Shown: positions 7,660 to 29,373 of the stretch, piece by piece
Numbering within the stretch: the first letter of the stretch is position 1
Layout of the letters: every line of letters starts with the position of its first letter
Made by a program: the position numbers and the translations under genes
Notes under the pieces: generated by a model
The model's input: the letters and a program-made list of their open reading frames with translations, nothing else
Database searches by the model: none
What the model was told of the DNA's origin: nothing
Virus record (IMG/VR): IMGVR_UViG_3300049215_000086
Location: 1 to 30,259 of that record
Source: a virus
Length of the DNA: 30,259 bases
Reading direction: 5' to 3' (one strand)

Positions 7660-9282
7660 TTACGTCTGCACCGTGACCACGAGGTTCGCACCGGGGATCG
7701 TGCTGCCCACCTGGCCGATGATGAAATCGATCTGACCGTCCGGCGAAAACTGCACCGACGTCGTCCCGCTCGGTGGGTTCGGCATTGCCGGCGCCGTTCC
7801 CAGCTGCAGGTTGCCGTTGCTGTCGAGCGCGCCGGTGAGGACGGGCAGGTAGTTCGGCGGCCAGTCCCTTAGTGGAGCGGTGCGCGTCCACTGCGTGAGG
7901 CCGTGATAGGGCATCTGGCGGCCGTCAGGGACGTTCGGGCTCGTCGCGTTTCCATCCGGGTAGCTGGTGAAATTTCCGGTGTCGATGACCAGGCAATCGA
8001 GCAGGCCGACGGTTCGGGTGCCCATCGCGTTCGGCGGCGAGATGTAGCAGACCCAGATCACGATCGCGGCGTTTGCGTCGCCGCCGAAACTGACTGCGCC
8101 GGTGGGCGCGGTCTGGACCTTCGCGTAGATCGTGCGGATGGATTCCCAGGCCTGCGCGGAGATCCGCGACGCGGACGTCGCGCCGACGCTCAGGCCTCCG
8201 GAGATGCCGAGGCTCGTGTAGGCAGCTCCGCACATCGTTCTGAGGCCTGGCGCGGGAGGTAGGGATCGCGTGTTGTTCGTGACGCCGTCGGGCAGGTAGG
8301 GCGTCGGGGCCAGGTTCGTCAGGAGCGAGATTCCGGATCCGGAGACGGCGACCGCGGCGATGCACATGTTGTCCCAGAGGAAGCGCAGGAGCTGCGGGCC
8401 GGCTGAAACGTCCAGGTTGGTGAAAAATTCTTTGTTGATGAGCCTGTAGAAATTCGCTCCGGTGTGCGCGCTCAGCTTCGAGCCATATTGCGCGTAGCCG
8501 GTGGCGGCGCCGTTTGCGTGGCGCGCGAGCTTGCACGAGAAGTGCGTGTCATCGGTCGGCGTGATCGCGGTGATCTGGTCGATCTCGTACGAGTACGCGG
8601 CGCTCACGATCGTCGGGTCGTTCCAGATGATGAAGTCGCCGACGGCGAACTGTCGGCCGAGGGCGGCGATCGCTGTGGCGCCGGTGCCGCCGCCGCCGCT
8701 GAAAGTCACGGTCAGCGGCGCCGCCAGGTTGTATCCCTGGGTGGTCTGCGTCCAGCCGGTTATTTTGCCGCCAGTGAGGATCGCGGTCCCCTTCGCCGGG
8801 CGTCCCTGGCCGTTGGAGCTCGCGATCGAAATGTTGACCGTTCCGCTGTAGCCGGATCCGGGATTCGTGATCGCCAGAGCAGGCCCGAATCGCTGCAGGC
8901 CTGTCAGCGTCACGTTGAACGTGACCGGGTCGTCGGAATTGTTGACGGTGCCGGTGCCATACCAGCCGATGTCGGTCTCGTCGATCGACGGCGCGAGGAT
9001 CGTGATCAGGTTCGAGGATCCGCCCTGCGTGACGAATCGCTTCAAAAGCCAGAACCACTGCAGCCAGGCTTTCGAAAAACGCGCGGCCTGGACCGCCTGG
9101 AGCAACGAGGGGACGTCGCTGCCGGACAGTTGCTTCTCGTCGAGGCCTGGCTGCGGCATCGGCGGGTCGCCGAGAGTGATTCCGGTTGGTGTGGCGCTTC
9201 CGAGTGACTGGAAGGCCTCGAGCGTCAGGGTCGCGTACGCTTCAGGGCGAATCTGAAATACGAGCTGCGGCGTCGTGCTCAC
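7660..9282 (-). CDS. large tail structural protein
   Basis: The 540-residue protein starts with GTG at 9282, preceded at six bases by GGAGG that lies in the end of the gp10-like gene. The sequence is beta-rich with many Gly, Thr and Asn. Residues about 105-200 include a repeat-like ITNPGSGYSGTVNISI / GTAILTGGKITGWT region typical of phage tail proteins with 'NPGSGY' turns. The middle (RLINKEFFTNLDVSAG..LLRFLWDN) is more globular. No enzyme motif is visible. It lies between the gp10-like stabilisation gene and the lectin-like genes, so it most likely forms part of the tail hub or a fibre anchor. The specific role is unassigned. Confidence 0.75.
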   Translation of the reverse strand: MSTTPQLVFQIRPEAYATLTLEAFQSLGSATPTGITLGDPPMPQPGLDEKQLSGSDVPSLLQAVQAARFSKAWLQWFWLLKRFVTQGGSSNLITILAPSIDETDIGWYGTGTVNNSDDPVTFNVTLTGLQRFGPALAITNPGSGYSGTVNISIASSNGQGRPAKGTAILTGGKITGWTQTTQGYNLAAPLTVTFSGGGGTGATAIAALGRQFAVGDFIIWNDPTIVSAAYSYEIDQITAITPTDDTHFSCKLARHANGAATGYAQYGSKLSAHTGANFYRLINKEFFTNLDVSAGPQLLRFLWDNMCIAAVAVSGSGISLLTNLAPTPYLPDGVTNNTRSLPPAPGLRTMCGAAYTSLGISGGLSVGATSASRISAQAWESIRTIYAKVQTAPTGAVSFGGDANAAIVIWVCYISPPNAMGTRTVGLLDCLVIDTGNFTSYPDGNATSPNVPDGRQMPYHGLTQWTRTAPLRDWPPNYLPVLTGALDSNGNLQLGTAPAMPNPPSGTTSVQFSPDGQIDFIIGQVGSTIPGANLVVTVQT

Positions 9283-9284
9283 GC

Positions 9285-10817
9285 TCAGCCTCCGGTGCCC
9301 ATCTCATATTCGGCGTAGCCATCGACCCAGCACTGCGGGAGATTGTCGGTCGTCGTGAGGCGGTAGCAGCGCTTGCGTCCGATGCCTGCCCTTCGCCAGA
9401 TCGCGCGGTCTGGAGACGTTCCGCCCGGGCCGGACTGGAGAGTGATCCCGGTGCCATAGGTCTGGCCGCCATCGTTTGAGATCTCGAGCGTCCAGTTGCG
9501 CGTCGACGAGTACGGGCCGCCGTAATGCACCTCGAGCTGGCGATGGCGGATTTGCTTGTTTTCCTGCTGGATGATCGGCGTCGTGCGCTGGAAGGTGATC
9601 GCGGTGCCGGCGTCCTGGTGCACGCCGATGCTCGACGTGTAGAGGTTGCCGGATGAATCGAGCAGGTAGTGCTGCCCGAAGGCCCACGCGTGATAAAAGC
9701 CCAGCTGGTTCGTGCTCGGGCCGTTGTAGGCTCGGCGGTGCCAGAGGTTCTCGGTCACGTCGTAAACCCAGGTCCGCTGCGCGGTCGGGAAGTTCAGCAC
9801 ATAGAAGTCGTGGCCGTTCTCGGAGTAGCTGTAGGCGATCGCGTCCGAGATGTCCGATCCGGAGATCGTGTAGCTGTTGATTGCGTACTCGACCGCGTGG
9901 GTCGAGATGCGCTTCGGGATGTAGCCGTCGGCCCGGTAGACGATTCCGATTCCGCGGTCGTCGCCGCCCAACCAGTAGAGCGATCCGTTGATCGCCACGA
10001 CGCTGAACGCTGCCCAGCATCCCTTCCCGATGAAGGCTCCCGGTACGCGCTGGAAGGGGAACGGATCTAACGCGGATCCGCCGGTGTCGTACCAGACCTC
10101 GATCGATCGCTTCCCGAAAAGCCACAGCTCCTCGGGACCGGCGCCCGTCAGCGAGCCGGGCGTGTGGATCATCTGCAGCTGGTCCGGCGCGCCGGTTTTA
10201 ATTCCGAACTGGAGGGGATCCCAGACGTTGCCGACGAAAATCTGCGACAGGTTGAACTGCGTTCCATCGATCGTGTTGATCGGGATCGGATCGGTCGGGA
10301 AGCTGCCGGCTGGGCGCAGGACCACGCCGTATCCGTCGATACAGCCGACGCCGGCGCCGCTGATGACGGCGGGTGGCGTCGAGGTCGAGCCGTCGACATA
10401 CCAGACGTTCTGGTTCGCGGCGCCTCCGGATCCGGGTCCGGATCCGTCCCAGACGAGCAGCGCTCCGGAGCTCGGCAGCGTCAAACCTGGTCCGCTCGGC
10501 ACGAATACGATTTGCGCGGGTCCGGTGGCGTTCCCGATCGTGTAGCTGTGGATGATGGATCCGCTCTGGTTTACTTCGACCAGGTCGCCGCCGGCTACTG
10601 CGAAGAGGCGGTTATTGCCGCCCCACAGCGCTCGCCCGTTGCCGCCAATGTTGCCCAGCAGTGTCAGTCCTGGGCGGTTGAAATAGGCATATTTCGTGCC
10701 CTTGCTCGCTCCGTTGCCGCTCTCGATGAGTTCCGGGTAGAGGTTGACCAGGTCCTCTGGATCGACGGACGGATTCTCCGTCGTGTAGGCCGGCCCGATG
10801 AATCCAAACGACGGCAT
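9285..10817 (-). CDS. packaged-DNA stabilisation protein, P22 gp10-like
   Basis: 510 residues; P22 gp10, a tail accessory factor below the portal, is somewhat shorter. The N-terminus (GFIGPAYTTENPSVDPEDLVNLYPELIESG) has the family's usual 'sP.vn.q..iNlYpE' form. After it come repeated WGG/WDG beta-propeller-like segments, a DPLQFG.KTGAPDQLQMI region, and EELWLFGKRSIEVWYDTG, all typical of gp10-type proteins. ATG at 10817 follows GGGAG by five bases and abuts the stop of the gp4-like gene upstream. In P22, gp4, gp10 and gp26 close the portal in sequence; here the gp4-like gene directly precedes it, as expected. Confidence 0.88.
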   Translation of the reverse strand: MPSFGFIGPAYTTENPSVDPEDLVNLYPELIESGNGASKGTKYAYFNRPGLTLLGNIGGNGRALWGGNNRLFAVAGGDLVEVNQSGSIIHSYTIGNATGPAQIVFVPSGPGLTLPSSGALLVWDGSGPGSGGAANQNVWYVDGSTSTPPAVISGAGVGCIDGYGVVLRPAGSFPTDPIPINTIDGTQFNLSQIFVGNVWDPLQFGIKTGAPDQLQMIHTPGSLTGAGPEELWLFGKRSIEVWYDTGGSALDPFPFQRVPGAFIGKGCWAAFSVVAINGSLYWLGGDDRGIGIVYRADGYIPKRISTHAVEYAINSYTISGSDISDAIAYSYSENGHDFYVLNFPTAQRTWVYDVTENLWHRRAYNGPSTNQLGFYHAWAFGQHYLLDSSGNLYTSSIGVHQDAGTAITFQRTTPIIQQENKQIRHRQLEVHYGGPYSSTRNWTLEISNDGGQTYGTGITLQSGPGGTSPDRAIWRRAGIGRKRCYRLTTTDNLPQCWVDGYAEYEMGTGG

Positions 10818-11567
10818 TTACGCTCCCGGTTTCGGCGGGGGCGGCCCCATGGGATCTGCGGCGCTCAGCTGGCCCGTCCCCGGCGGAGCGCCTGGATTGC
10901 TGAAGTTCGAGGCGTTCATCGCGCGCACCGCGGCCTTCGATTCCTTCGCGGCTTCGATCAGCTCGCCGCTGGCGGAAACGGAAAGCAGCGGAGCCAGGCG
11001 GATCGCCAGGTTGGTGATCAGGGCTTCGTCGAGCCCCTGCGGCGTGTTGACCACGGTCGTCAGGTCGGGGAATTCGGCGAGTGCTTGCCATCCACCGATC
11101 TCGAGCTTCGGCGCGGTGCCGGTGAAGGTCGGCGTGCCGGCGAGGTTCCCTGTCGCGGTCGGGAATTGATAGTCGTAATAGAAAAGCTCGGGGATCTGCA
11201 CCGCTCGGGTCTTCTCGGGGTAGGCCTGATATTCCTGCTGCGAGACGTTGCGAATCGGGAAGCGCACGAACGTGCCGGCGATCGCGGCGCTGGGCAGGAG
11301 AAGACCCACCGTGTCGATCCGGATGAATCGCGTGCTGCCGAAGGATCCGCCGGCGCCGAACGTGTACGCGGCCGTCCCGCTAGTCAGGGCGACGGCGGAA
11401 ACGACGACGACGGGGACGTTGATCCGCTCGAGGGACCAGTTGTCGATCATCGAATTCGCTACGGCGAGGAAATCCGTTTGCTCGGACGAGCTCAACGATT
11501 CGCCCGGGTAAAGGCGGCCGAGGCGCTCGACCGCTGCGTTGAGGAGTGTTCCGCCGCTGAGTGACAT
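10818..11567 (-). CDS. P22 gp4-like head-tail adaptor, copy 2
   Basis: 249 residues. The N-terminal half (LLNAAVERLGRL ... EQTDFLAVANSMIDNWSLERINVPV) matches the helical fold of gp4-type tail accessory factors, which bind the portal ring after packaging. The last third has NLAIRLAP ... LIEAAKESKAAVRAMNAS, the same pattern as in the gene at 15829. It ends in a Pro-rich tail. P22 gp4 is about 166 residues, so this one is longer by a central beta insertion. It sits directly before the gp10-like gene, the P22 arrangement, which makes this the better candidate for the true gp4 equivalent. Confidence 0.82.
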   Translation of the reverse strand: MSLSGGTLLNAAVERLGRLYPGESLSSSEQTDFLAVANSMIDNWSLERINVPVVVVSAVALTSGTAAYTFGAGGSFGSTRFIRIDTVGLLLPSAAIAGTFVRFPIRNVSQQEYQAYPEKTRAVQIPELFYYDYQFPTATGNLAGTPTFTGTAPKLEIGGWQALAEFPDLTTVVNTPQGLDEALITNLAIRLAPLLSVSASGELIEAAKESKAAVRAMNASNFSNPGAPPGTGQLSAADPMGPPPPKPGA

Positions 11568-11603: not shown

Positions 11604-13031
11604 TCACTGAACGATCGGAAATCCTTTCTGGCCTCCGCCGGTGGACTGGTGCTGAATCGGCCCGATGTCTAGGTAGCCAGTTCCACCGACAGGGAGTGCG
11701 CCAGGGAATCCGTTTCCGCCGAGGGCAGTGATGCCGGCAGCCGAAAGCGCGAAGTTATTGGACGCCGAATTCACGAACGGGTTCAAGGCCAGCGTCTTGT
11801 CGTGCGCTCCGGAGCTCAGGTTGTTGAGGTTGCCGCTCGTGTTCGAACCATAGGCGTTGTAGTCCCACCAGAGCATGCCGGTCGGGTTGTACGACGTCGT
11901 GTTGTTCATCCCATAACCGGAGTTCCCGTACGCGATCGAATCGACGAAGGTGAAGCCCACCCACTGGCCCAAAGCCAGCCGGAAGCCGTCTCTCCCGTTC
12001 GAGACGGCCAGGCAGCGGACGCATGCGAAGACGGCCTGGCTTACGGCGGTGAGCACGAAGCCATCAGAGCTCGCGCCGCTGTTGTTCGCCGCGATGCAAA
12101 TGTCGCAGACGGCGCCGGACGCGATCGAAAAGGCCGCGACGCTGCCGTTTACCGCGACGCAGATGAAGCAGAACTGGTTGTAGCCGTTCTGGAGGAGAAA
12201 CGAGTTCCCACCCCCCTGCGATTTGACGGTGCACAGGCTGCAGGTCTGCTCGGTCGAGTTCATCTCGATCCCGTATTGCTGCTGGCAGTTCTCGACCAGG
12301 ATGTTGAACAGTCGCTCGGGGCTCGTCGCCATCTGCACGCCGTTCGATCCCGATTCGCTGTTGCAATTGATGATGAAATTCGCAAAGGTCATGCCCTGCG
12401 AGTTGACGCTAACGAGCGGGCCGACGCTGGTGGTCGTCGTCGTGATCGTGACTTGTCCCTGGTCGCCTCGCGTCGAGCTGTAGCCCATGAACGCGGGCTC
12501 CTGGCCGGCGTTCGAGGCGGCTTGGTTCAGGGTGATCGTGCTGGACGTGGTGATGGTGCTCTCGGCCTTCACCCACGTGATGGCTCCAGCCACAGCGATC
12601 GTATTCGCTTGGACCATCGTCGCCAGCGCGCCGCCTTCATACCACGTGCCGCCCGAGAGCGACCCGACAGAGCTCCCTGCGGCGCGGTCGAGCGTCGCAT
12701 TCCCGCCGGAAACCGAAACGATCTCATACCAGCCGACTGTCCAGTTCGTGCCGGCGCTGATGTGGATGCAATTGCCGACGTCGGCGCTCACGAAGCTGTG
12801 CGACGCGCTGCTCACGACGGCGGGATTCGCGGTTCCGTTCGAGGTGGCGAGATCAGTGAAGTTGTACTGCGCGGAGTTCTGCTGGCTGTAGTCGGTGCCC
12901 GCTTTCGCGGAGTCGAAGCACCCGCCATAGCTGTCGCTTCCGTGCGTCGGGCGGACTTCGATCACGGTCGTCGCCGGCAGCGCTGCGAAAAGGCTAATCG
13001 AGAAGAGGGCGGAAAGGATTACTGGTCGCAT
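11604..13031 (-). CDS. secreted right-handed beta-helix protein, tailspike-like, with CxxC ladder
   Basis: 475 residues from the ATG at 13031, overlapping the fibre gene by 13 bases. Residues 1-20 are a typical Sec signal peptide (MRPVILSALFSISLFAALPA). Residues about 140-380 form a pectate-lyase-type parallel beta-helix. Within it four CxxC motifs recur at residues 264, 288, 309 and 337, one per coil (CSLC, CFIC, CDIC, CVRC); the next coil has the same shape without Cys (FVDSIAYGNSG). The C-terminus (LALNPFVNSASNNFALSA) is the usual end of such helices. P22 tailspike is also a beta-helix but lacks a signal peptide. A receptor- or polysaccharide-binding or degrading role is plausible; no catalytic residues could be assigned. 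Confidence 0.8.
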   Translation of the reverse strand: MRPVILSALFSISLFAALPATTVIEVRPTHGSDSYGGCFDSAKAGTDYSQQNSAQYNFTDLATSNGTANPAVVSSASHSFVSADVGNCIHISAGTNWTVGWYEIVSVSGGNATLDRAAGSSVGSLSGGTWYEGGALATMVQANTIAVAGAITWVKAESTITTSSTITLNQAASNAGQEPAFMGYSSTRGDQGQVTITTTTTSVGPLVSVNSQGMTFANFIINCNSESGSNGVQMATSPERLFNILVENCQQQYGIEMNSTEQTCSLCTVKSQGGGNSFLLQNGYNQFCFICVAVNGSVAAFSIASGAVCDICIAANNSGASSDGFVLTAVSQAVFACVRCLAVSNGRDGFRLALGQWVGFTFVDSIAYGNSGYGMNNTTSYNPTGMLWWDYNAYGSNTSGNLNNLSSGAHDKTLALNPFVNSASNNFALSAAGITALGGNGFPGALPVGGTGYLDIGPIQHQSTGGGQKGFPIVQ

Positions 13032-15088
13032 TCGACGATGAGGCTCGCTTTCGTGGCGCTGGAAACCGTGTTGATGTTGATCGCGACGATGTCGTTCGCG
13101 GCGACGCTGGTCGTCCAGCCGGTGAGCGTCGTCGAGTGGAGTGCGGTGCCGGTGCTGATCGCCGGCAGCGCTGAGGCGGTGATGGAATTGGACGACGTCG
13201 GGATCGCGGTGCCGGTCGCGATTTTCCAAATGTCGAAGGTGATGGTGCCCGTGTCGACGGTGATGTTCCAGGCGGTGATCGTGCAGGCGAACGGAACCGT
13301 GAAATACGTGGTCTGCGTGGATCCGGACGTCAGGGCGGATCCGGATCCGTCGAAGCCGGCGCCGATGGCTCGCTTCGCCAGGTTCGCGATTGCCTTGCCT
13401 GAGTCGGATGGCGTGTTCGATGCACCGAACGTCACAACGTCTCCGGTCGTGCCGGCAAACGCGGTGCCGTTGATCTTCGACGTGGTCGTCGCGCACGATC
13501 CGGCGCTCGTCGTCGTGTCGCCTGCCAGGGCAGGAAGCTGACTACAAGTCGCCGATCCCGACAGGTCGCTGAACGCGGGCTGAAGCGAAGAGAACACTCC
13601 GGAATTGGCGAGGCTAGTGAGCCACTGATGCGAAACCGCGCTATAAGACTGGACGCCACCGAGCGTCGATCCAGTCGGGGTCGGAAGGTCCGCGCCCACG
13701 AGGGCGCGAAAGGTCGGCGCGGCTGCGGATCCGGAGCTCGGGCCCGCAAAGATCGTGTTAGCGGTCGCGTTTGAGAGAGTGAAGGTCAGGGCTGGCGTCG
13801 TCGTCGCGGTGGCGACGCTCGTCGTGAACAGCGGAGAGAGGTTGCCCGCGCTGAAGGTCGTAACGGTGCCGGTGCCGCCCGTCGCTGAAAGAGTGCCGCC
13901 CGAAAAGCTGAGGCCGCTGCCGAGGGTGACGTTTGAAAACCCGCCGCTTCCGTTGCCGTAAAGGATGGACGTTCCGGAGGTCGTTACCGTGTTCGACAGC
14001 GTGCCGCCTGAAAAGCTGAGACCGGTGCCCAGGGTCACGTTGCTGAAGCCGCCGCTCCCGTTGCCGTAGAGGATATTCGATCCGGACGTCAGGGACGGCA
14101 GGTCGGTCGCGGCGATCGCGCGGAACGTCGGCGTGCCGCTCGATCCGTTGGGCGACGCGAAGAAGAGGTTTTGCGACTGGCTCGACAGGCTGAAGGTGAG
14201 CGCTGGCGTCGTCGTCGCGGTGGCGACGCTCGTCGTGAACAGCGGAGAGAGGTTGCCCGCGCTGAAGGTCGTAACGGTGCCGGTGCCGCCCGTCGCTGAA
14301 AGAGTGCCGCCCGAAAAGCTGAGGCCGCTGCCGAGGGTGACGTTTGAAAACCCGCCGCTTCCGTTGCCGTAAAGGATCGAGGATCCGGACGTCAGGGCGG
14401 GCAGGTCGGCCAGCGCGATCGCGCGGAACGTGGGCGTTCCGGTGGATCCATTCGGCGACGCGAAGAAGCGGTTTTGCGTCTGGCTGTTCAGTGTAAACGT
14501 GAGCGCTGGCGTGGTGGTCGGGTTCGCCACGCTCGTCGCAAAGAGAGGCGAGAGGTTGCCGGCGCTGAAGGTCGTGACAGTGCCGCCGCCGGTCGCTGCA
14601 CAGGACTGCGACCACTGCGCGTATCCGTTCAGGAAGCAAATCGCGTACGTGCCGGGCGACGCCGGCGACTGCAGTGAGTTCAGTGGAATCTGCGGCGGGG
14701 GCGGGATCGCCACGGTTTCGACGCCAGTGAGGCCGACGGGGCCTGTTGCAGGCACTTTCCAGGCGCTGGTCGCTGCGGTGCATATGGTCGGGCGCAGGTC
14801 GTAGCGGACGGTATAGAAGCCCTGGTTGGGCGTCGTCGTCGTATTCGTGGGGATCAGGTTGACGCTGAACACGCCCGTCGACGGATCCACTGGGACGGGA
14901 AGGCTACCGCCCTGAATTCGGTAGCCGTCCATCGATGTGAACGTCGGCCAAGTCAGCGTGATCGTTCCACCGCAGAACGTCGAACCGTTCGCCAGGCGCA
15001 GGGTGTCAGTGACTGTGGTCGTCGTCGGTTGCGCGATCGCGATCGCGGCGCCGACGATGGCGAGGCTCAGAATGCGGGAGAGGCGCAC
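13019..15088 (-). CDS. repeat-rich tail fibre with signal peptide
   Basis: 689 residues if the GTG at 15088 is the start; a longer frame reaches into the gene upstream and is Arg-rich shadow. Residues 1-19 read as a Sec signal peptide (LSLAIVGAAIAIA, then Q). Residues about 20-125 form a secreted-type beta domain (TTTTVTDTLRLANGSTFCGG, DGYRIQGGSLPVPV). Residues about 145-490 are tandem repeats using TVTTFSAGNLSPLF and ILYGNGSGGFSNVTLG, and the C-terminal 130 residues look like a jelly-roll tip (TYFTVPFACTITAWNITVDTG). Such collagen-free repeat shafts are typical of phage fibres. Only a weak AAAGG site precedes the start, so the start is less certain than the gene. Two 176-bp segments are identical. 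Confidence 0.8.
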   Translation of the reverse strand: MRLSRILSLAIVGAAIAIAQPTTTTVTDTLRLANGSTFCGGTITLTWPTFTSMDGYRIQGGSLPVPVDPSTGVFSVNLIPTNTTTTPNQGFYTVRYDLRPTICTAATSAWKVPATGPVGLTGVETVAIPPPPQIPLNSLQSPASPGTYAICFLNGYAQWSQSCAATGGGTVTTFSAGNLSPLFATSVANPTTTPALTFTLNSQTQNRFFASPNGSTGTPTFRAIALADLPALTSGSSILYGNGSGGFSNVTLGSGLSFSGGTLSATGGTGTVTTFSAGNLSPLFTTSVATATTTPALTFSLSSQSQNLFFASPNGSSGTPTFRAIAATDLPSLTSGSNILYGNGSGGFSNVTLGTGLSFSGGTLSNTVTTSGTSILYGNGSGGFSNVTLGSGLSFSGGTLSATGGTGTVTTFSAGNLSPLFTTSVATATTTPALTFTLSNATANTIFAGPSSGSAAAPTFRALVGADLPTPTGSTLGGVQSYSAVSHQWLTSLANSGVFSSLQPAFSDLSGSATCSQLPALAGDTTTSAGSCATTTSKINGTAFAGTTGDVVTFGASNTPSDSGKAIANLAKRAIGAGFDGSGSALTSGSTQTTYFTVPFACTITAWNITVDTGTITFDIWKIATGTAIPTSSNSITASALPAISTGTALHSTTLTGWTTSVAANDIVAININTVSSATKASLIVECDQ
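13791..13966 (-). repeat. 176-bp exact direct repeat, copy A
   Basis: Base-for-base identical to 14202-14377 (offset 411), bounded by mismatches on both sides. It encodes residues about 374-432 of the fibre, from the ILYGNGSGG unit through the TTFSAGNLSPLF unit. Confidence 0.92.
14202..14377 (-). repeat. 176-bp exact direct repeat, copy B
   Basis: Second copy of the segment at 13791-13966, encoding residues about 237-295 of the fibre. The surrounding repeat units are diverged, so this identity is recent. Confidence 0.92.
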
Positions 15089-15092
15089 GCAC

Positions 15093-15620
15093 TCACTTGC
15101 CTTTCTTTTTGCTCTTGTCCTCGGGCTCGGCGGCCGCCGGCGCCGGCGCGCTCGCGTCATGAGCGAGCTTCGCGGCCATCTGGTTGTAGCGATCGCGGAA
15201 TTCGATCAGCTTGTCGACGGGGCTTTCGCCGGCTTCGACGCCCAGGATGTTCGCGATCTCGTCCAGCATGGCGAGCTTTTCGGCCGGTCCGAATTCGCGC
15301 ACCGGAGACGGCGGATATTGCGACGGGTGATCGACCCACCCCTGTTCGGACGGGGCGCGCTCTGCTTCGTCGTCCGCGTTTTTCACGACGATGGCGGCCT
15401 GATGCGGGTGGTAGCGCATTTTCGGAAAAGGCGAGTACTTGGCCGGCACGGTCGTGAGGCGGTGCTTCACTCGCTGCGCGGGGGTCTTCTGGCTGTCCGC
15501 AAACGTTTCCGTCCGATGCCGCGCGAGCTTGTCGAGCTTGATCTGCGGGATGTTCTCGGGGATTTTCGCGAGCTCTGCGATCTCCTGCTGGCTCAGCTCA
15601 CCGGCGTTCATTCGATCCAA
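15093..15620 (-). CDS. hypothetical virion-module protein
   Basis: 175 residues from a TTG at 15620, chosen because AAGGAG lies eight bases upstream, inside the end of the previous gene; an ATG three codons later is too far from that site. Residues about 50-56 share VKHRLTT with the small gene just upstream. Residues about 63-95 (SPFPKMRYHPHQAAIVVKNADDEAERAP ... GW) resemble a phage segment often written 'yPKmlYhp..a.vVkn.eee', found in structural accessory proteins. The C-terminus is helical and then Lys-rich (EDKSKKKGK). No defined function. It lies between gp4-like copy 1 and the fibre. Confidence 0.72.
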   Translation of the reverse strand: MDRMNAGELSQQEIAELAKIPENIPQIKLDKLARHRTETFADSQKTPAQRVKHRLTTVPAKYSPFPKMRYHPHQAAIVVKNADDEAERAPSEQGWVDHPSQYPPSPVREFGPAEKLAMLDEIANILGVEAGESPVDKLIEFRDRYNQMAAKLAHDASAPAPAAAEPEDKSKKKGK

Positions 15621-15625
15621 GGGGG

Positions 15626-15793
15626 TTACTCCTTCGGTTTGTTAGTCGTCAGGCGGTGCTTGACCTTTTCAGCGGGAGTGCCGGGCTGGTTGTGGATTTT
15701 GTCGGAGTAATGCGCCTTCGCGCGGGCGAGGTTCGCTTGCTTCTTGTCGGCGATCCGCTGCGCGTGCACTTCTTTCGGTTCTAGTTCGGCCAT
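15626..15793 (-). CDS. small charged protein, relative of its neighbour
   Basis: 55 residues from the ATG at 15793, which has AGGAGCT nine bases upstream. An alternative ATG at 15832 overlaps the preceding stop (ATGA) and would add 13 residues. The protein is hydrophilic and helical (EVHAQRIADKKQANLARAKAHYSDK). Its C-terminal TPAEKVKHRLTT closely matches TPAQRVKHRLTT in the next gene, so part of one was probably copied into the other. The function is unknown. Confidence 0.62.
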   Translation of the reverse strand: MAELEPKEVHAQRIADKKQANLARAKAHYSDKIHNQPGTPAEKVKHRLTTNKPKE

Positions 15794-15828
15794 GGTGATG
15801 AGCTCCTGGTTTCTGCAATCGATGATCG

Positions 15829-16614
15829 TCATCCTAGTGGCGACAGCCAATTAAAGCGGCTGCGGCCGGTGCGCTGCGACGTCGGGATGTCGACGACGGC
15901 TTGCTCACAGGGCGCGTTGATGCTGTCGATCGTTATGCGCGACTCCTGGGCGATTTCCTTGATCTGCTCGCGGTCCTCGCTGCTGAGGTTCTTCCGGTAG
16001 GACCCGGGCAGCTCCATCGCGAGGTTGTAGGTGAGGGCGCGCGCGTAGCCAGGCGGAACGAACAGCGTGTCGTCCGAGTTCAGCGTGGAGTTCAGTGCCT
16101 GCCAGCTGTACATTCGGAAGCTATACGCGCTCTGAGGTCCTGGCCAGAAGAAAAGGCTTGCGACGCCGGTCGGCTCGGACTGCGAATAGCCGGCATCGAA
16201 GTAGAGCTCGAACGGGATCGAGAAAATGCCGGGAACGCGGATCTGCGACTGGCCCGCGACGTCGATGATCTCCATGTCGACGTTCAGCTCCTGCGGCGCG
16301 GTCTGGTAGATCAGCTGGGCAAAGGTGATGCGTTCGGGTCGCGCCGTGTCGAAGGCGCCGTACTGGATCCCGTTGACGACGCCGGCGGTTGCGCCGGGGC
16401 CCATCCAGTAATACTGCACGTTCGCGGTGAGTTGGTAGACGGCGATCGTCGTGGTGAAGATGCGGTTACGCATCGCGTTCCAGCTGTCGAGGAGCTGGTT
16501 TAGAAAGTTCGTCGTCTCCTCGAGTTGCTCGGGCGCGAATCCGCGGCCTGGCTTCTCCATCTGTCCGCAGAGTCGGAGTGCGTCGCGCGTGTAGGCCTGG
16601 ACCGTCTTATCCAT
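15829..16614 (-). CDS. P22 gp4-like head-tail adaptor, copy 1
   Basis: 261 residues. The N-terminus (TRDALRLCGQMEKPGRGFAP ... NQLLDSWNAMRNRIFTTTIAVYQLT) is the helical bundle plus strand seen in gp4-type proteins. The C-terminus (NLAMELPGSYRKNL ... IKEIAQESRITIDSINAP) aligns by eye with the same region of the gene at 10818, so the two are paralogues. The middle is a beta-rich insertion. It is placed two genes after the coat, close to where P22 has gp4. Which of the two copies binds the portal is open. No strong ribosome site precedes the ATG. Confidence 0.8.
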   Translation of the reverse strand: MDKTVQAYTRDALRLCGQMEKPGRGFAPEQLEETTNFLNQLLDSWNAMRNRIFTTTIAVYQLTANVQYYWMGPGATAGVVNGIQYGAFDTARPERITFAQLIYQTAPQELNVDMEIIDVAGQSQIRVPGIFSIPFELYFDAGYSQSEPTGVASLFFWPGPQSAYSFRMYSWQALNSTLNSDDTLFVPPGYARALTYNLAMELPGSYRKNLSSEDREQIKEIAQESRITIDSINAPCEQAVVDIPTSQRTGRSRFNWLSPLG

Positions 16615-16679
16615 GTGAAAAAGTGGGGACGCGCACGCTGCCTCGCCCCCTCGCGAGAAGGAAACCCTTCAGAGAACGG

Positions 16680-17450
16680 TTAACGGTTGTACCAGGCCGT
16701 CCCGTTTGAGCCGCAGCGGGTCGAGCCATAGTTGGTCGTCACGCCGGTGCAGTGGTTCGATCCGCCGGCGATGGTGATGTTGTCAGTGCCGGCGGATCCG
16801 GATTCATCGACGATGATGTAGACCTTGCCTGGCATCGAATTCGCGGCCGGCAGAGTGACGGCGCGCGTAGCGGTCAGGGAGGTGTACGCGATGACGTAGT
16901 CGTAAGGCAGGGCCGAATAAGCGGCGTCGGCCACGGTGGTCCTGGCGTTCGGGATCCGGGGATCGCCGGCGCCCGGTCCGGCGTACGCGAATTCACCGCC
17001 CGAATCACACGTAAGCCACTTGCCGCTGAGCGTCTCGATGATCGGGTATGCGTAGAGGTTCGCAACGGTGCACGAGCCTCGCGGTTCTTGTCCGACCACG
17101 TGCTGGGCAAACCAGTCAGGGTTTCCGATCCAGACCAGGGCGTTCGCCAGGTGCGCTTCGGCGTGCGTTCCGTTCTGGCCTCGCAGGACCTGGAAGGTCG
17201 TAGTCGTGCCCACCTGGGCGATCACGCGCTCGGCTTCGCCGTCGACGAACAGCATCGTGCCCTGCGTTCCGTTATTGATCGAGGGGACGTTGATGCCGGT
17301 CGCAGAGGCGACGGTGACGAACGTCGGGGGGGCCGTCTGGCCTCCACCCGACTGCGCGGAGCTGAGGGTCGTATAGGTCAGCGTGTTGAGCTGGGCGAGG
17401 GCCACGATAGGCAGTCCCAGCAGGAATAGGATTTGTCGAATTCGATTCAT
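16680..17450 (-). CDS. virion-module protein with signal peptide
   Basis: 256 residues from the ATG at 17450, eight bases after AAGGAG; an ATG two codons earlier is only two bases from that site. Residues 1-20 (MNRIRQILFLLGLPIVALAQ) form a clear Sec signal peptide. Residues about 45-110 (FVTVASATGINVPS, GTMLFVDGEAERVIAQVG, FQVLRGQNGTHAEAHLANALVWIG) match a small beta domain common in phage decoration-like proteins. The C-terminal part (DYVIAYTSLTATRAVTLPAAN, GKVYIIVDESGSAGTDNITI) is the 'TLPaa...i.DesGsAgtnnIti' domain of many fibres. It directly follows the coat, the usual place for a decoration protein. The export signal is unexpected for an assembled virion part. Confidence 0.78.
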   Translation of the reverse strand: MNRIRQILFLLGLPIVALAQLNTLTYTTLSSAQSGGGQTAPPTFVTVASATGINVPSINNGTQGTMLFVDGEAERVIAQVGTTTTFQVLRGQNGTHAEAHLANALVWIGNPDWFAQHVVGQEPRGSCTVANLYAYPIIETLSGKWLTCDSGGEFAYAGPGAGDPRIPNARTTVADAAYSALPYDYVIAYTSLTATRAVTLPAANSMPGKVYIIVDESGSAGTDNITIAGGSNHCTGVTTNYGSTRCGSNGTAWYNR

Positions 17451-17510: not shown

Positions 17511-18749
17511 TTAGGCGCCCGCGACGCGGCAGGCGTGCTCGCGATACAGCGGGGAAATGCCCCAGTAGACGTCGAAGCGGCACTTCCAGATGTCGGTGTC
17601 GGTGTCGAAGTCGCGGATGAAGCGCAGCCAGATGCCGGTCTCCTTGTCGCGCTCCTGATAGGCCATATCGGTGCCGCCGGGGACTTTTCCGGGGACGGAC
17701 ACGACGGTGTAGGCCGTCTCGTGGAAGCACAGGTACTGCGTTCCGGATGCGCCGCCGGTGGCGCTGAAGGTGAGCAGCGCGCCGTTCGCCGGCGCGGCGT
17801 TGACGTTCTGATACTGCCCGCTCGGCGTGATCGCCGGCGAGATGGTCAGAGTCGCGTTTCCGCTGCCGTCAGCAGTAGCAGCGGCCTCGACCACGAACTG
17901 CTGCAGGACGTTCGTGTTCTGGTAGTTCGCGGCGTTGGTCATGTTCACGTTCGCGATCGTGAACGTGTCGCCCTGGGCGATGGTGGTGTTCGCGGTGAAG
18001 CCGTTCAGCACCAGCTGCATCGTGCCGTTGTTCCCGCCGGCTCCGGTCTGGTTCGCACCGTTGACCGCGGGCGCGCCGGCGTTCGCGCCGGACGTCAGAG
18101 ACGCGAGGTTTTCCGTCTCATACCAGTCCATCCCGCCGGTGTCGCGACCCATCATGTTCTTCTGGAACATCTTGGAAATCGTGAACTGCGGGTTGAACTG
18201 CCCTTTCAACTGGTCGATGACCTCGGTCGTCGCGTCGGCGTTGATGACCATGCATCGTCCGTCACGCGGGGCGAGGTTCTGCTTCAGCTTCTTCGCGGCC
18301 AGGAGGTAGGTGTGGAACGCGGTCGATCCGGTCGGGGTCGTGCCATAGGTGCCGACCTGGTTCCAGGTGCGCTGCGCCATGTACTGCGCGGCAGCGAAGT
18401 CGAGCTTGTTGGCGAGGCGCTCGGCCGCGGGCTTGATGTAGTTCTCGTCCCAGGCCTCAATCGACATGTAATCTTCCATCGTGTCGGCCTGGAAGTGAAC
18501 GCCCGACTGCTGCGTTACGCTCACAGGGGTCACGAGGTTGTCTAGGGGCTCGGGCTGGAAAAGGGCGCCGTCGACGCCGACGAAACGCTGCGGTTTCCGG
18601 ACCTCGACGGTTCGACCGACTTTCGCACCCGGTTGCCCGAATTCGTCATCGTACCCGTCGTACAGGTTCGGCCAGATCTGGAGGAGGTTGGAAAGGCGCG
18701 CGAGACCTCGATAGAGGATCTTTTGCGTTGAGAGTAAATTGTTGGGCAC
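17511..18749 (-). CDS. major capsid (coat) protein, P22 gp5 type
   Basis: 412 residues; P22 coat has 430. The N-terminus (NNLLSTQKILYRGLARLSNLLQI), the EVRKPQRF strand, DYMSIEAWDENYIKPAAERLANKLDFAAAQYM, and the C-terminal VPGGTDMAYQERDKETGIWLRFIRDFDTDTD region all match the P22-type coat family. A Thr/Asn/Gly-rich insertion (about 215-330) would form the surface I-domain. The start is a GTG with AGGAG seven bases upstream; the start codon lies in the palindrome GGGCACGTGCCC. It follows the scaffold and precedes the signal-peptide protein, the expected head order. Confidence 0.93.
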   Translation of the reverse strand: MPNNLLSTQKILYRGLARLSNLLQIWPNLYDGYDDEFGQPGAKVGRTVEVRKPQRFVGVDGALFQPEPLDNLVTPVSVTQQSGVHFQADTMEDYMSIEAWDENYIKPAAERLANKLDFAAAQYMAQRTWNQVGTYGTTPTGSTAFHTYLLAAKKLKQNLAPRDGRCMVINADATTEVIDQLKGQFNPQFTISKMFQKNMMGRDTGGMDWYETENLASLTSGANAGAPAVNGANQTGAGGNNGTMQLVLNGFTANTTIAQGDTFTIANVNMTNAANYQNTNVLQQFVVEAAATADGSGNATLTISPAITPSGQYQNVNAAPANGALLTFSATGGASGTQYLCFHETAYTVVSVPGKVPGGTDMAYQERDKETGIWLRFIRDFDTDTDIWKCRFDVYWGISPLYREHACRVAGA

Positions 18750-25923: not shown

Positions 25924-26940
25924 TTAGTTTTCCTCGATCGAGTCCTCGACGCGCGATCGGTTATAGAGTCCGATCGCTTGCTCGAGGGCGGGCTTGGACT
26001 GCGCGATCACGCGGATCCCCTGCTCGTCGTACGCGAGATCCGTGTCCGGATCAAAGCCATGGTCGACCAGGATCTGCCAGCGCTCGCGATAGTAGCGGCG
26101 GGCTTTCGGTCCGTGGAAGTAGTGTTCAATCCGGCCGTTCACGAATCCGACCTCGCCCTTCGTCACGCGCATCGCGGCGGCCTGCCACTCGCGGCAGAGG
26201 CGGAAGAACGACGGCGACATTTTTCCGTGGATCGTGTCGTCGACTTCGCCGATGCAAGCGAAGGCCATGTGATGGTCGGCGGATCCCAGTGGCGCGAAAT
26301 CCATCAGGCCGCGGACGTTCTCGAAAAACAGGCGTGTGCAGGCCCACGCGAACCCGCTGTGGGCGTACTCGTAGGGCTGCGCGGGCCACATCTGTTTCGG
26401 CACGCGGCGCTGGTGCTGGTAGCCGAACGATTTAAAGTGCTGGTAGATTCCGCCGCTCGGCCTCAAGTCGGCGCAGTCCTGCCAGGGCTGGACGACGTGA
26501 AAGTGCTGGAGCTGGTGGAGCGTCTCCTGCGCCCAGTTGCCGTCTCTGAAGAAGACGTCCATGTCGATCCAGGCGAAATATTTGGCGTAGCGGTCGCGCG
26601 CGATCGCGTGGCGGATCCCGAGGTTGATGAGGGGCTCTTTGATCCAGCTTTCGCTGCCCACGCGGACCGGGTAATAGTTCGCGCCCGCGTGCTGCGACGC
26701 TTCTTCGAGTTCGTTCTGCCGATCGCCGAACGTTGCCTCGACGACAGTCAGGTCGACGCAGTCTGTCCTGGCCATGTGGCCGATCCACTCGCGCGCGAGC
26801 CGGTAGCGCGACTGATAGCGGACCGGGTTGCTGCACACCCCGACGACGTGGAGCGTGTTCTGGCTGCGGAGCTGGGCCTTGCTGATGTGCTGGACGAGAT
26901 GGTCGCCATGGAGCGACATCGGTTGAAATTCGGAAACCAC
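25924..26940 (-). CDS. GT-A-like glycosyltransferase
   Basis: 338 residues from the GTG at 26940, chosen because GGAGAGGAGAG lies just upstream; the longer frame is basic shadow over the endolysin end. Residues about 25-40 (NTLHVVGVCSNPVRYQSRY) begin a Rossmann-like strand-helix. YFAWIDMDVFFRDGNW (about 121-136) carries a DxD-type DMD expected to hold the metal and the sugar nucleotide. GSADHHMAFACIGE (about 244-257) is a likely acceptor/catalytic loop. Phage glycosyltransferases modify DNA bases, virion proteins or host surface sugars. Its place in the lysis cassette fits none of these obviously. No membrane helix is seen. Confidence 0.78.
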   Translation of the reverse strand: MVSEFQPMSLHGDHLVQHISKAQLRSQNTLHVVGVCSNPVRYQSRYRLAREWIGHMARTDCVDLTVVEATFGDRQNELEEASQHAGANYYPVRVGSESWIKEPLINLGIRHAIARDRYAKYFAWIDMDVFFRDGNWAQETLHQLQHFHVVQPWQDCADLRPSGGIYQHFKSFGYQHQRRVPKQMWPAQPYEYAHSGFAWACTRLFFENVRGLMDFAPLGSADHHMAFACIGEVDDTIHGKMSPSFFRLCREWQAAAMRVTKGEVGFVNGRIEHYFHGPKARRYYRERWQILVDHGFDPDTDLAYDEQGIRVIAQSKPALEQAIGLYNRSRVEDSIEEN

Positions 26941-26962
26941 TGTAAGACTCTCCTCTCCCTGC

Positions 26963-27370
26963 CTACCCGGGCGACGCGAGCGCTGCGGCCTGCGCGGCCG
27001 GTAGGTGACTTTCGTATCGCATCTGGTAGTCGCCACCGCGATCGATATACCAGGCGATCGAGAGGTTTTTGTTGTTCCCGCCCCACAGCAGAAACGCGGC
27101 GCGCGCGTTCGTCAGCGGGTCGAAGAGGGCTGAAGGCGACGCGTTTGCCGGCGCGAGGAGCTTCGCGTTGATCAGCGATCGGACGCTGGGATCTTTCAGG
27201 TTGATCTGCCAGAGGCCGAACGAATTATCACCCGTCTCGATGTTCCCGTTGTACGCGTCCGGGTTGCCGGCGCTCTCGCGCAGCGCGATCGCTGTCATCG
27301 TGACGGCGACGACGGGCGGAAAGCCAGCCTGGCGCGCGAACTGGTAGATCGCGGGGGGCGTCAGGATCAT
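26963..27370 (-). CDS. endolysin, lysozyme/SLT-like fold
   Basis: 135 residues. VTMTAIALRESAGNPDAYN gives the catalytic Glu (E32) followed by Ser, and NSFGLWQINLKD (50-61) is the GLxQI motif of lytic transglycosylases and goose-type lysozymes. The distance between them (about 20 residues) and the short length fit a single catalytic domain. Residues about 92-115 (AFLLWGGNNKNLSIAWYIDRGG) close the domain. It cleaves peptidoglycan for release, or for entry if virion-borne. No signal peptide, so it needs a holin. GGAG precedes the ATG. Confidence 0.86.
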   Translation of the reverse strand: MILTPPAIYQFARQAGFPPVVAVTMTAIALRESAGNPDAYNGNIETGDNSFGLWQINLKDPSVRSLINAKLLAPANASPSALFDPLTNARAAFLLWGGNNKNLSIAWYIDRGGDYQMRYESHLPAAQAAALASPG

Positions 27371-27495
27371 GGGTGCTCCGGGGCCGCGTGGGCTCTCGCC
27401 GGATCCGGGAAAGGAGAAATGGATTCCGGCGAGGGCTTTGTGCCGCGGCGCGCTGCGCGAACCGGTGATGTCTTGGGATGGACGGTCCTCGCCAC
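27367..27495 (-). CDS. possible 42-residue Pro-rich ORF
   Basis: A GTG at 27495 opens a 42-codon frame whose TGA overlaps the endolysin ATG (ATGA). The peptide is Pro-, Ser- and Arg-rich (SPVRAARRGTKPSPESISPF). There is no clear ribosome site. It fills most of the 146-base gap between the XhlA-like gene and the endolysin, which otherwise holds nothing I can identify. Confidence 0.22.
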   Translation of the reverse strand: MARTVHPKTSPVRAARRGTKPSPESISPFPDPARAHAAPEHP

Positions 27496-27516
27496 GCGTT
27501 TAGTAGTCGCCACTCG

Positions 27517-27717
27517 TCAGTGCTTGAGCATGGCGCTGGCGATGTCGAGTGCGCGGGATCCCAGCGCCAGGGCGCTCAGAATGACGCTCCAGATCACTAG
27601 TTTCCGCAGCTCGTGCAGCTGGCCAGGTTGTCCGTTTCCAACGATTGCGCTCATCTGTGTCTCCAGTCGCGCGAGCCGCGATCCGGTGTCGAGGTTTTCC
27701 TCGCCATGCCCATGCAT
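27517..27717 (-). CDS. small membrane protein, XhlA/holin-like
   Basis: 66 residues. A polar N-terminus with a short coiled coil (SRLARLETQMSAIVG) is followed by one membrane helix (LVIWSVILSALALGSRALDI). This layout matches XhlA-type lysis accessory proteins. The ATG overlaps the stop of the 58-residue frame upstream (TGATG). It is placed before the endolysin and supports a lysis role together with the second holin-like gene at 25655. Confidence 0.68.
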   Translation of the reverse strand: MHGHGEENLDTGSRLARLETQMSAIVGNGQPGQLHELRKLVIWSVILSALALGSRALDIASAMLKH

Positions 27718-27893
27718 CAGTTCAGCTCCGCGAAATAATCAGCTGTCTCCTCAAAGTCGAAGTCGTCAACGATTACGCCGTAGCGGCGCCCTTCTCTTGC
27801 GTGGTGATCCGGCGCGAGCCGGTAGGTGCTTCGGAAACCACGGAGTTGAAGACGTCGTCCGCGACGTTTTTGGCGAGCGCGCTCAGCGTGCAT
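27717..27893 (-). CDS. 58-residue overprinted small protein
   Basis: An ATG at 27893, within the preceding gene in another frame, opens a 58-codon frame whose TGA forms TGATG with the next start. The N-terminal third is Arg-rich, as expected of a shadow. The C-terminal part outside the overlap (YGVIVDDFDFEETADYFAELN minus its first residue) is acidic, aromatic and protein-like. No ribosome site is clear, so the true start is doubtful, but the end looks coding. The function is unknown. Confidence 0.42.
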   Translation of the reverse strand: MHAERARQKRRGRRLQLRGFRSTYRLAPDHHAREGRRYGVIVDDFDFEETADYFAELN

Positions 27894-28186
27894 GTTGCGA
27901 ATTTCACGAAGGCTTTAAGGGGGATCAGCGTCAGGAGTTTCTTGTAGTCGATCGACTTCTCCTTCGCGCACGGTCCGAGTCGGACGGTGAAGCGCTGGCC
28001 GATGACGTTCCACTCCTCGTCCGGCTTCGCGGGGCATAGCTCGCGCAGTGTTTTCTCGAGCACCTTCGCGCGCTCGAGCTTCTGTTTGAGTGGGGCGATC
28101 GCGATCGCGTATTCCTTTTCGATCTGGCCGAGCTCGTCCGCGATCGCGGGGAGGGCTGGCAGGGGCGCAGTTTTCTTCGAGGCCAT
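27773..28186 (-). CDS. hypothetical helical protein
   Basis: 137 residues. Residues about 10-50 (LPALPAIADELGQIEKEYAI ...) form a coiled coil with a leucine pattern. Then comes a beta strand pair (WNVIGQRFTVRLGPCAKEKSID) and a helical end (DYKKLLTLIPLKAFVKFATCTLSALAK). This shape recurs in small phage proteins of unknown role. AGAGGG precedes the ATG, and the palindrome at 28196-28221 sits directly upstream. Confidence 0.7.
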   Translation of the reverse strand: MASKKTAPLPALPAIADELGQIEKEYAIAIAPLKQKLERAKVLEKTLRELCPAKPDEEWNVIGQRFTVRLGPCAKEKSIDYKKLLTLIPLKAFVKFATCTLSALAKNVADDVFNSVVSEAPTGSRRITTQEKGAATA

Positions 28187-28195
28187 GCGCCCTCT

Positions 28196-28221
28196 TAGTC
28201 GTCAAATATATTTGACGGCTA
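28196..28221. promoter_or_regulatory. 26-bp palindromic operator candidate
   Basis: The core 28200-28217, CGTCAAATATATTTGACG, is an exact 18-bp palindrome with no spacer. After one mismatch three more pairs extend it (TAG...CTA), including the HTH gene's stop codon. It is an AT-rich island in GC-rich DNA. The lack of a loop favours a dimeric DNA-binding protein over an RNA hairpin. The HTH protein encoded next to it is the obvious candidate ligand. Confidence 0.7.
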
Positions 28222-28575
28222 CGCTGCGGACGCCAGCGGGACTGCGATCCGATGCTCCTGCATCCAGCGGTACAACGTCGTCCTGCCCTTGCCGAGTAGC
28301 TTCGCGGCCTCTGCGACGTTGCCGTTCGTCTGACGCAGCGCGCGCTCGACGGCGCCGGCTTGCAGCGCTCCGAGGTCGAGGGTGTCCGGACGCGGCCGCG
28401 AGCTCGAGGGCGGGAAGACGCGGTGTCCGTTTCGAAAGCCGGCGATCTTCACTCCCTCGCGCAGGACCTCGATCTCGGTGTCGCGGATCTCGCTCAGGTC
28501 CAGCGCGAGCGAGACGCACTCGAAGAGGTTTGCGTGGGCGGCCAGGTCCATGCCGGCTGTGCGGATCAGGTTCAC
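28219..28575 (-). CDS. Fis-type helix-turn-helix regulator
   Basis: 118 residues from a GTG that overlaps the sigma-factor stop (GTGA). The C-terminus, residues about 69-110 (LGALQAGAVERALRQTNGNV, then AEAAKLLGKGRTTLYRWMQE), is the Fis/NtrC-type DNA-binding domain normally found at the end of sigma-54 activators. There is no AAA+ domain. The N-terminal 60 residues (DLAAHANLFECVSLALDLSEI, EVLREGVKIAGFRNG) are of unknown family. It probably binds palindromic DNA as a dimer. Coupled to a sigma factor, it is likely a regulator of phage transcription; the palindrome just after the gene may be its site. Confidence 0.82.
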   Translation of the reverse strand: MNLIRTAGMDLAAHANLFECVSLALDLSEIRDTEIEVLREGVKIAGFRNGHRVFPPSSSRPRPDTLDLGALQAGAVERALRQTNGNVAEAAKLLGKGRTTLYRWMQEHRIAVPLASAA

Positions 28576-29147
28576 GACGCGAGCTCCCTTCGCAGCAGTG
28601 TGATGATGTTCTCGTGTATTTCCGCGATCTGCCGGCGCCGGCGCCAGTACGCTCGCTTCAGGCGATCGCCGTCTTCGGCGTAATACTGTTCGAGGACGGC
28701 TTGCTGCTGGCGTGTGAGGCGCGCGACGGCGCCCTCGAGGCGCTGGAGCATCAGCTCGTGCGACAGGTCGTCCTGCGGCGCCGCTGCGAGGCGCATCGAA
28801 ATCGGGCGGCCGTCTCCATGTGGGTCGTCGATCGACGGCATGGTGTTCGCGGTGAAGTGTCGCCGGCGCACGGAGTCGAGGATCGCGCCGCGGATGCACG
28901 GTCGCGCGTACGCGGAGAACGGCGTTCCGTTGTGCTCCTTCGGTCGGTACCGCGTCGCGGCGTGCAGCAGGGCCACGTTGCCGGTTGCGATGAGGTCTTC
29001 GAGGTCGAATGACGGCGGCAGCGAGTTGTGGATCCGTCTCGCTATCGGCGGCACGATTTCAAGGTGGGCTTCGACGAGTCGATCGCGTCGCGCTAGAACC
29101 CGGGCGCGGCGGCCGCCTTCGTCGATGGAGACGGGAGTCCGTGACAT
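28572..29147 (-). CDS. phage sigma-70-family sigma factor
   Basis: 191 residues. Region 2 at about 24-97 is clear: VEAHLEIVPPIARRIHNSLP, DLEDLIATGNVALLHAATRY, and TPFSAYARPCIRGAILDSVR, as in FliA/WhiG-type factors (core binding, -10 recognition). Region 3 is short. Region 4 (about 133-190) starts normally (LTRQQQAVLEQYYAEDG) but the HTH is basic and atypical (KRAYWRRRRQIAEIHENI). So it can probably bind core RNA polymerase, with altered -35 recognition. It heads the late operon after one small gene. No good ribosome site is seen before the ATG. Confidence 0.88.
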   Translation of the reverse strand: MSRTPVSIDEGGRRARVLARRDRLVEAHLEIVPPIARRIHNSLPPSFDLEDLIATGNVALLHAATRYRPKEHNGTPFSAYARPCIRGAILDSVRRRHFTANTMPSIDDPHGDGRPISMRLAAAPQDDLSHELMLQRLEGAVARLTRQQQAVLEQYYAEDGDRLKRAYWRRRRQIAEIHENIITLLRRELAS

Positions 29148-29169
29148 GGATTGCTGGATATAGTCGTCG

Positions 29170-29373
29170 TCACTTCAGTCGAGCTCGTAGCTTCTCCAGA
29201 ATGTGGAGTTCCCAGCGATCTTCGGCGAGTCTCTCGTCGGGGAATGCCTCGAGCACCACACCGTGGGCCATGACGAGCCAGGAGTCCATCGAACGGTTGT
29301 AGCGCCACTGGACGCGAGGCTTCGGTGGCCCTGCTGTTGGTGGCCTTTTCCAGGCGATGAAGGGGCGTTCCAT
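29170..29373 (-). CDS. small hypothetical protein, first gene of leftward operon
   Basis: 67 residues; the ATG follows GGAGG. The protein is Trp/Arg-rich (IAWKRPPTAGPPKPRVQWRY) with a mixed alpha/beta C-terminus (SWLVMAHGVVLEAFPDERLA). It is not recognised. As the first gene after the divergent control region it may be expressed early and may influence the following sigma gene. Confidence 0.66.
   Translation of the reverse strand: MERPFIAWKRPPTAGPPKPRVQWRYNRSMDSWLVMAHGVVLEAFPDERLAEDRWELHILEKLRARLK

Follow-up and report, generated by a model that had tools for sequence, protein, structure and literature searches.

Predicted Sec-type signal peptides on three virion-module proteins of a P22-type phage

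The structural modules of tailed phages are generally understood to encode parts that are assembled in the cytoplasm. Sf6 TSP, CBA120 TSP2, phi29 gp12 and the K1 lyase are phage late-gene products of the beta-helix superfamily with an N-terminal virion-binding part, and we know of no signal on any of these tailspikes and appendages. Signal-arrest-release (SAR) endolysins such as JG068 gp47 (PMC3765740) are phage proteins that use host export by means of an N-terminal signal, which keeps these enzymes in the membrane. Among bacterial proteins, Pantoea stewartii WceF (PMC7949094), a trimeric glycan-degrading enzyme encoded in an exopolysaccharide cluster, combines a tailspike-type right-handed beta-helix with a signal for Tat export. 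In the literature searched, which covered few subscription papers, we found no virion-module fibre family described as carrying signal peptides. Here we describe three virion-module proteins, A, B and C, with signal-type starts in the IMG/VR virus record IMGVR_UViG_3300049215_000086 (the window, which is the whole stretch of 30,259 nucleotides analysed). Protein C resembles the phage tailspikes in superfamily and in its place among late genes, but unlike them it has a signal and no N-terminal virion-binding part.

Signal-type starts in the window

The window has a P22-type coat gene (PF11651, 1.5e-32) followed in order by gp4-like and gp10-like genes, the arrangement of a P22-type tailed phage, and nearly all of its genes are on the minus strand; its portal- and terminase-like genes are presumed to be such from gene order and sequence. 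The coat protein has 37 homologues in isolates, every one below 60% identity. As the first-pass annotation had described, genes A, B and C all lie between the coat gene and the second gp4-like adaptor copy (Table 1), and the first adaptor copy and two small genes, none of them signalled, are interspersed among them. The gp4-like adaptor (phrog_12985) is present twice, with B and C between the copies, and seemingly four adaptor-like genes stand in tandem in G010 (L108:13965-16813). A glycosyltransferase-like gene close to lysis-type genes of the window (25924-27036) could alter host surface glycans.

Table 1. Features of the A-B-C stretch in the window (a slash marks the predicted cleavage)
Feature	Position	Strand	Description
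P22-type coat protein (PF11651)	17511..18749	-	upstream boundary of the stretch; no signal
Protein A	16680..17450	-	Sec signal, residues 1-19 (VALA/Q); phage tail-protein domain (phrog_1101); 4 mature Cys; directly behind the coat gene
gp4-like head-tail adaptor copy 1 (phrog_12985)	15829..16614	-	no signal
Small gene directly upstream of B	15093..15620	-	no signal; no family match
Protein B	13019..15088	-	GTG start; signal MRLSRILSLAIVGAAIAIA/QPTT; conserved N-terminal domain; fibre-like repeats; phrog_35197 C-terminal domain; 8 mature Cys
Protein C	11604..13031	-	signal MRPVILSALFSISLFA/ALPATT; right-handed beta-helix (AF2 pLDDT 90.5); closest to pectate lyase Pel9A; 12 mature Cys
gp4-like head-tail adaptor copy 2 (phrog_12985; phrog_637)	10818..11567	-	downstream boundary; no signal
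gp10-like head closure/packaged-DNA stabilisation protein (phrog_578)	9285..10817	-	no signal

Signals were called by a fixed rule for the n-, h- and c-regions. Applied to internal segments, the rule gave a background of 0.16%, and with shuffled N-termini one of 1.05%. Among the 29 called genes of the window, the rule flagged A, B, C and a lysozyme-like protein. The flag on this last, lysozyme/transglycosylase-like gene (26963-27370) is doubtful and probably a false positive. The rule found no signal on the neighbouring genes (the coat, both gp4-like adaptors, the small gene upstream of B, the gp10-like gene, gene 7660-9282 and the remainder), in agreement with the earlier statement that the genes on either side lack such ends. 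A, B and C each have the features of Sec export and signal peptidase I (SPase I) cleavage, namely a basic n-region, a hydrophobic h-region and small residues at positions -3 and -1, and no twin arginine was found in the three starts. The Sec-type signals read in the first-pass annotation are therefore borne out, with SPase I-type starts at sound start sites. The cleavage sites given there for A (VALAQ) and B (AIAIAQ) also stand; that of C does not, the predicted site lying a few residues before the AALPA end.

Protein A starts at ATG 17450, one of two candidate ATGs, which has a Shine-Dalgarno sequence (AAGGAG) 8 bases upstream, and its signal reads MNRIRQILFLLGLPIVALA/QLNT. Protein B starts at GTG 15088, just beyond the stop of the small gene upstream, and protein C at ATG 13031, in a 13-base overlap with the B stop. 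If translation began after the hydrophobic stretch, the signals would be start-site artefacts, and B indeed has only a GTG start. However, no start codon stands at the mature end of the proteins, where the first-pass annotation had considered a downstream start: in the part that separates the hydrophobic residues from the conserved core of mature A, B and C, the only one found is a GTG at codon 23 of C, within a conserved motif. The hydrophobic core of A (ILFLLGLPIVALAQ) is identical at 14 of 14 residues between the window and its relative L008 across 6 synonymous codon changes, which argues that this stretch is read as protein and that its amino-acid sequence is constrained. Given also the Shine-Dalgarno sequence of A and the 18 non-redundant C starts of like kind described below, an artefact has hardly any chance of being the explanation. 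Judging from the sequences, the signals of A, B and C are very probably real and used, and we infer that the three proteins would be exported and cleaved.

Conservation of the signals and switching at a fixed joint

Two IMG/VR contigs, L008 and L007, have coats 85% identical to that of the window and an A gene at the corresponding position. L008 has homologues of B and C as well, and its A, B and C each carry their own signal, at identities to the window of 49% (A), 61% (B) and 54% (C). The C-terminal half of A is swapped between the window and L008, with the signal and N-terminal half retained. A fourth gene with a signal lies in L008 at 8225-8737, flanked by the small gene and B. Thus the comparison of homologues proposed in the first-pass annotation finds the signals kept in relatives despite diverged sequence. 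Three more small genes of L008 (L008:2517-2768, L008:2786-3148 and L008:14969-15175), absent from the window, have signal-like starts; two of them sit between portal and scaffold, and one start (MNRRGFLGILGG) is twin-arginine-like.

The gene directly behind the coat is a signalled A homologue in G010, G015, G024 and L026, which are P22-type and differ in base composition (the cleavage region of L026 is longer and was read by eye), and six P22-type phages have a signalled A in this place. In G236, an Acidobacteriota genome, the A homologue behind a related coat is unsignalled and begins with MALTKTTIAGAI, at the mature end. The structure prediction of A was of low confidence (pLDDT 58).

Scanning with a seven-member alignment of C found 74 viral loci and five in bacterial genomes. 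The phage family has about 70 members, whose starts were read by walking upstream of the conserved core. Most members begin M-A-[LFI]-x-A-x-x-V-W-E-V-R, often straight after a stop codon, leaving no room for a signal. In 18 non-redundant members, as against about 54 unsignalled ones, 16-30 residues of signal-type sequence precede that point. The signals of the 18 are mutually unrelated in sequence, yet all are joined at the Met/Ala of the unsignalled form (the joint of L084 was read by eye). The SPase-type site stands directly before Ala (16 members) or Thr (2), which is residue 2 of the unsignalled proteins, so that predicted cleavage would yield the N-terminus of the unsignalled form minus its methionine.

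A maximum-likelihood tree of 72 C cores, with the signal columns excluded, requires 11 changes of state (bootstrap range 11-11; shuffled mean 16.2), all of them forced by strongly supported branches. For example, signalled L067 is sister to unsignalled L059 (support 100/100), and signalled L017 to unsignalled L027 (100/97). The family has therefore switched at least 11 times, by gain or loss, the tree not distinguishing the direction. Since the hydrophobic stretch measures 10-15 residues in each of A, B and C, it could be an uncleaved membrane anchor, as the first-pass annotation had suggested, or an ejection-type segment. Against this, sites of the A-x-A type are conserved at a fixed place though the hydrophobic sequence varies, the segment is missing from unsignalled homologues, whose N-terminus is the one that cleavage would leave, and cysteine numbers tend to be even (see below). 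We consider an anchor very unlikely and rejected it together with the start-site artefact, on the conserved cleavage sites, the synonymous changes in A and the lack of downstream starts.

Fold, gene neighbours and cysteine parity

AlphaFold2, run on mature C with 35 homologues, gave a parallel right-handed beta-helix (pTM 0.90), and PF13229 was found in 6 of 36 members of the family. The best fold match is the bacterial polysaccharide lyase Pel9A (PL9, PDB 1ru4; Z 29.5 over 329 residues, rmsd 2.7), a likeness of fold only at about 17% identity. We take Pel9A to be secreted. The next matches are an alginate epimerase/lyase (Z 27.7) and a rhamnogalacturonan lyase (27.0), and tailspikes and phi29 gp12 (Z 21-24) rank below the polysaccharide lyases and epimerases. 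The alignment to Pel9A begins at residue 3 of the model, and the matched part begins at chain residue 159 of the Sf6 tailspike, 330 of the full-length CBA120 tailspike and 96 of phi29 gp12, that is, in the region behind the N-terminal virion-binding domain. No such domain was found ahead of the beta-helix in the AF2 model of C; thus C is predicted to be a bare beta-helix, and its lyase-type fold suggests that it acts on glycans. Residues 264-340 of C have CxxC pairs at consecutive beta-helix turns (CSLC, CFIC, CDIC, CVRC), and unsignalled members have similar or more cysteine.

The fold of C is also that of secreted bacterial lyases, and a host exoprotein with a tailspike fold exists in WceF (PMC7949094), so that A, B and C might be recently captured host exoproteins without a phage function; the first-pass annotation had proposed acquired host exoproteins. 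However, A and C come from phage families that include unsignalled virion-module members, the repeated switching took place within phage family C, and among 396 Acidobacteriota genomes C was found in 2, as was a related coat. Host exoproteins are at most a remote origin, and a recent capture seems to have a small chance of being correct. In bacterial genome contigs, C homologues were found in Planctomycetota and one Acidobacteriota MAG, with no signal where the start was readable, and no B homologue was found. Among isolate phages (50,697 records) there was no homologue of C, of the N-terminal half of A or of the two conserved ends of B.

Signalled genes tend to stand together. Other signal genes lie within four genes of C in 14 of 18 signalled loci, as compared with 6 of 43 unsignalled ones (p 3e-6), and two or three signalled fibre-like genes follow one another in L035, L115 and, read by eye, L067. 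P22-type G014 has two successive signalled genes between portal and scaffold (L048:2342-3464), the slot that in DSL-LC05 holds pectate-lyase and tailspike genes. In L003, which is long-tailed and has an unsignalled C, signalled fibre-like genes (13930-14334 and 14344-14910) stand behind a muramidase-type gene.

Exported proteins of Gram-negative bacteria favour even cysteine counts (PMC7678975). Among the genes of these loci with at least one cysteine, the mature number is even in 36 of 46 signalled and 106 of 248 unsignalled genes (p 9e-6), and still in 31 of 38 signalled genes without the C family and 18 of 25 without the A, B and C families (p 0.006), these p-values being optimistic because members are related. 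Inside the C family alone, the parity trend is not significant (p 0.08). The idea that exported C proteins have more cysteines was rejected (1.76 per 100 in signalled and 2.29 in unsignalled members). Support for the first-pass view that the proteins are exported rather than cytoplasmic comes from the conservation of the signals, a splice joint at a fixed place, the residues at -3 and -1, and the tendency to even cysteine counts.

A similar arrangement exists in Acetobacter phage phiAX1 (LC644973), which is mitomycin-inducible and predicted by its authors to be incomplete (PMC8566455). In this particle-forming prophage, the fibre-like PhiAX1_440 lies between the gp4-like and gp10-like genes and starts with MKRLAILAGLCVPALAFA/Q. 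It adjoins a GH66 enzyme (2.9e-84), for which an ATG 35 codons upstream of the annotated start gives a signal, MKKIIILALLLLAPCVHA/MP, and nearly abuts the PhiAX1_440 stop; the annotated start, at 27492, is probably too late, the gene being 27387-29312 of record LC644973.1. In seven other P22-type records (PBR31, PAE2, DSL-LC05, CV-1-33 and three Manatee Spring contigs), no signal was found on the fibre-like genes checked. PBR31, PAE2, DSL-LC05 and CV-1-33 share the P22-type coat and a similar module order with the window, but differ from it in these unsignalled genes.

Proposed role and comparison with known systems

We favour, with some reserve, the reading that A, B and C are spike- or fibre-like late proteins that are exported by Sec, cleaved by signal peptidase I and act outside the cytoplasm, likely on surface glycans. 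The late products would enter the host Sec pathway, lose their signals, fold with disulfides beyond the cytoplasm and work either in the periplasm or extracellularly. The set would bind or cut the surface glycans of the producing host, thereby clearing the matrix for progeny or occupying receptors. Since C is a stand-alone lyase-type beta-helix without a virion-binding head, binding or cutting of these glycans is the most likely job of the set. A, B and C would mostly remain free, with a share of them perhaps coating virions upon lysis, and most of C would not be virion-bound. That the exported proteins are free glycan-active spikes or fibres has about an even chance; the bare lyase-like fold of C, the GH66 neighbour in phiAX1 and indifference to phage type point to free action. 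Of the records in which C or B is signalled, five have a P22-type coat and others lack one, so the trait is not limited to one phage type.

On the other hand, where the genes lie and the identity of the mature ends point to virion docking, and the location of A, B and C inside the head-tail operon, together with that of unsignalled C genes in the tail modules of long-tailed phages, suggests virion parts and thus speaks against the reading we favour. It is possible, though less likely than free action, that true virion fibres or decorations fold in the periplasm and dock on finished particles at lysis. This would fit A, which has a tail-protein domain and follows the coat gene, the unsignalled homologues in virion modules, and the even cysteine numbers. 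Each record with a signalled C has one full-length C gene, and no second full-length copy for the cytoplasm was found; what is exported may therefore act as a free enzyme or rejoin virions at lysis. Yet C lacks an additional virion-binding domain at its N-terminus, and its start stays conserved between phages of unrelated type, where a docking domain would be expected to vary. In addition, we know of no tailed phage that acquires fibres by periplasmic folding and docking at lysis. Only tentatively, therefore, do we suggest that some tailed phages make capsid and tail in the cytoplasm and send disulfide-bonded fibres or spikes through Sec to dock at burst, with lineages switching tail-protein families by signal gain or loss at the fixed joint.

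Exported fibres could also fill the cell's own receptors and block adsorption of progeny or competitors, a form of receptor masking or superinfection exclusion that overlaps with the action of free proteins. The fibre-like repeats and the exchangeable body or C-terminal parts of A and B, with signals retained, are consistent with this, but the genes are in a late virion operon and not among early or lysogeny genes, and we regard such masking as rather unlikely.

If C alternates between being cytoplasmic and being exported by Sec, as the switches at its fixed joint indicate, export of late spike or fibre proteins would be a selectable strategy. This bears on host-surface remodelling ahead of lysis and on the annotation of 'virion' genes, and such loci are a possible source of natural free glycan-active proteins. 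Phage phiAX1 is a direct test case.

Phage use of host export is already known for lysis enzymes, and A, B and C resemble SAR endolysins in this respect. Unlike SAR endolysins, they carry cleavage sites and are not encoded by lysis genes, and no lysozyme family match was found in A, B or C. The nearest precedent is WceF, which shares with C a tailspike-type right-handed beta-helix and an export signal; it differs in that WceF is a bacterial protein exported by Tat, whereas A, B and C stand in a phage virion operon and carry Sec-type signals.
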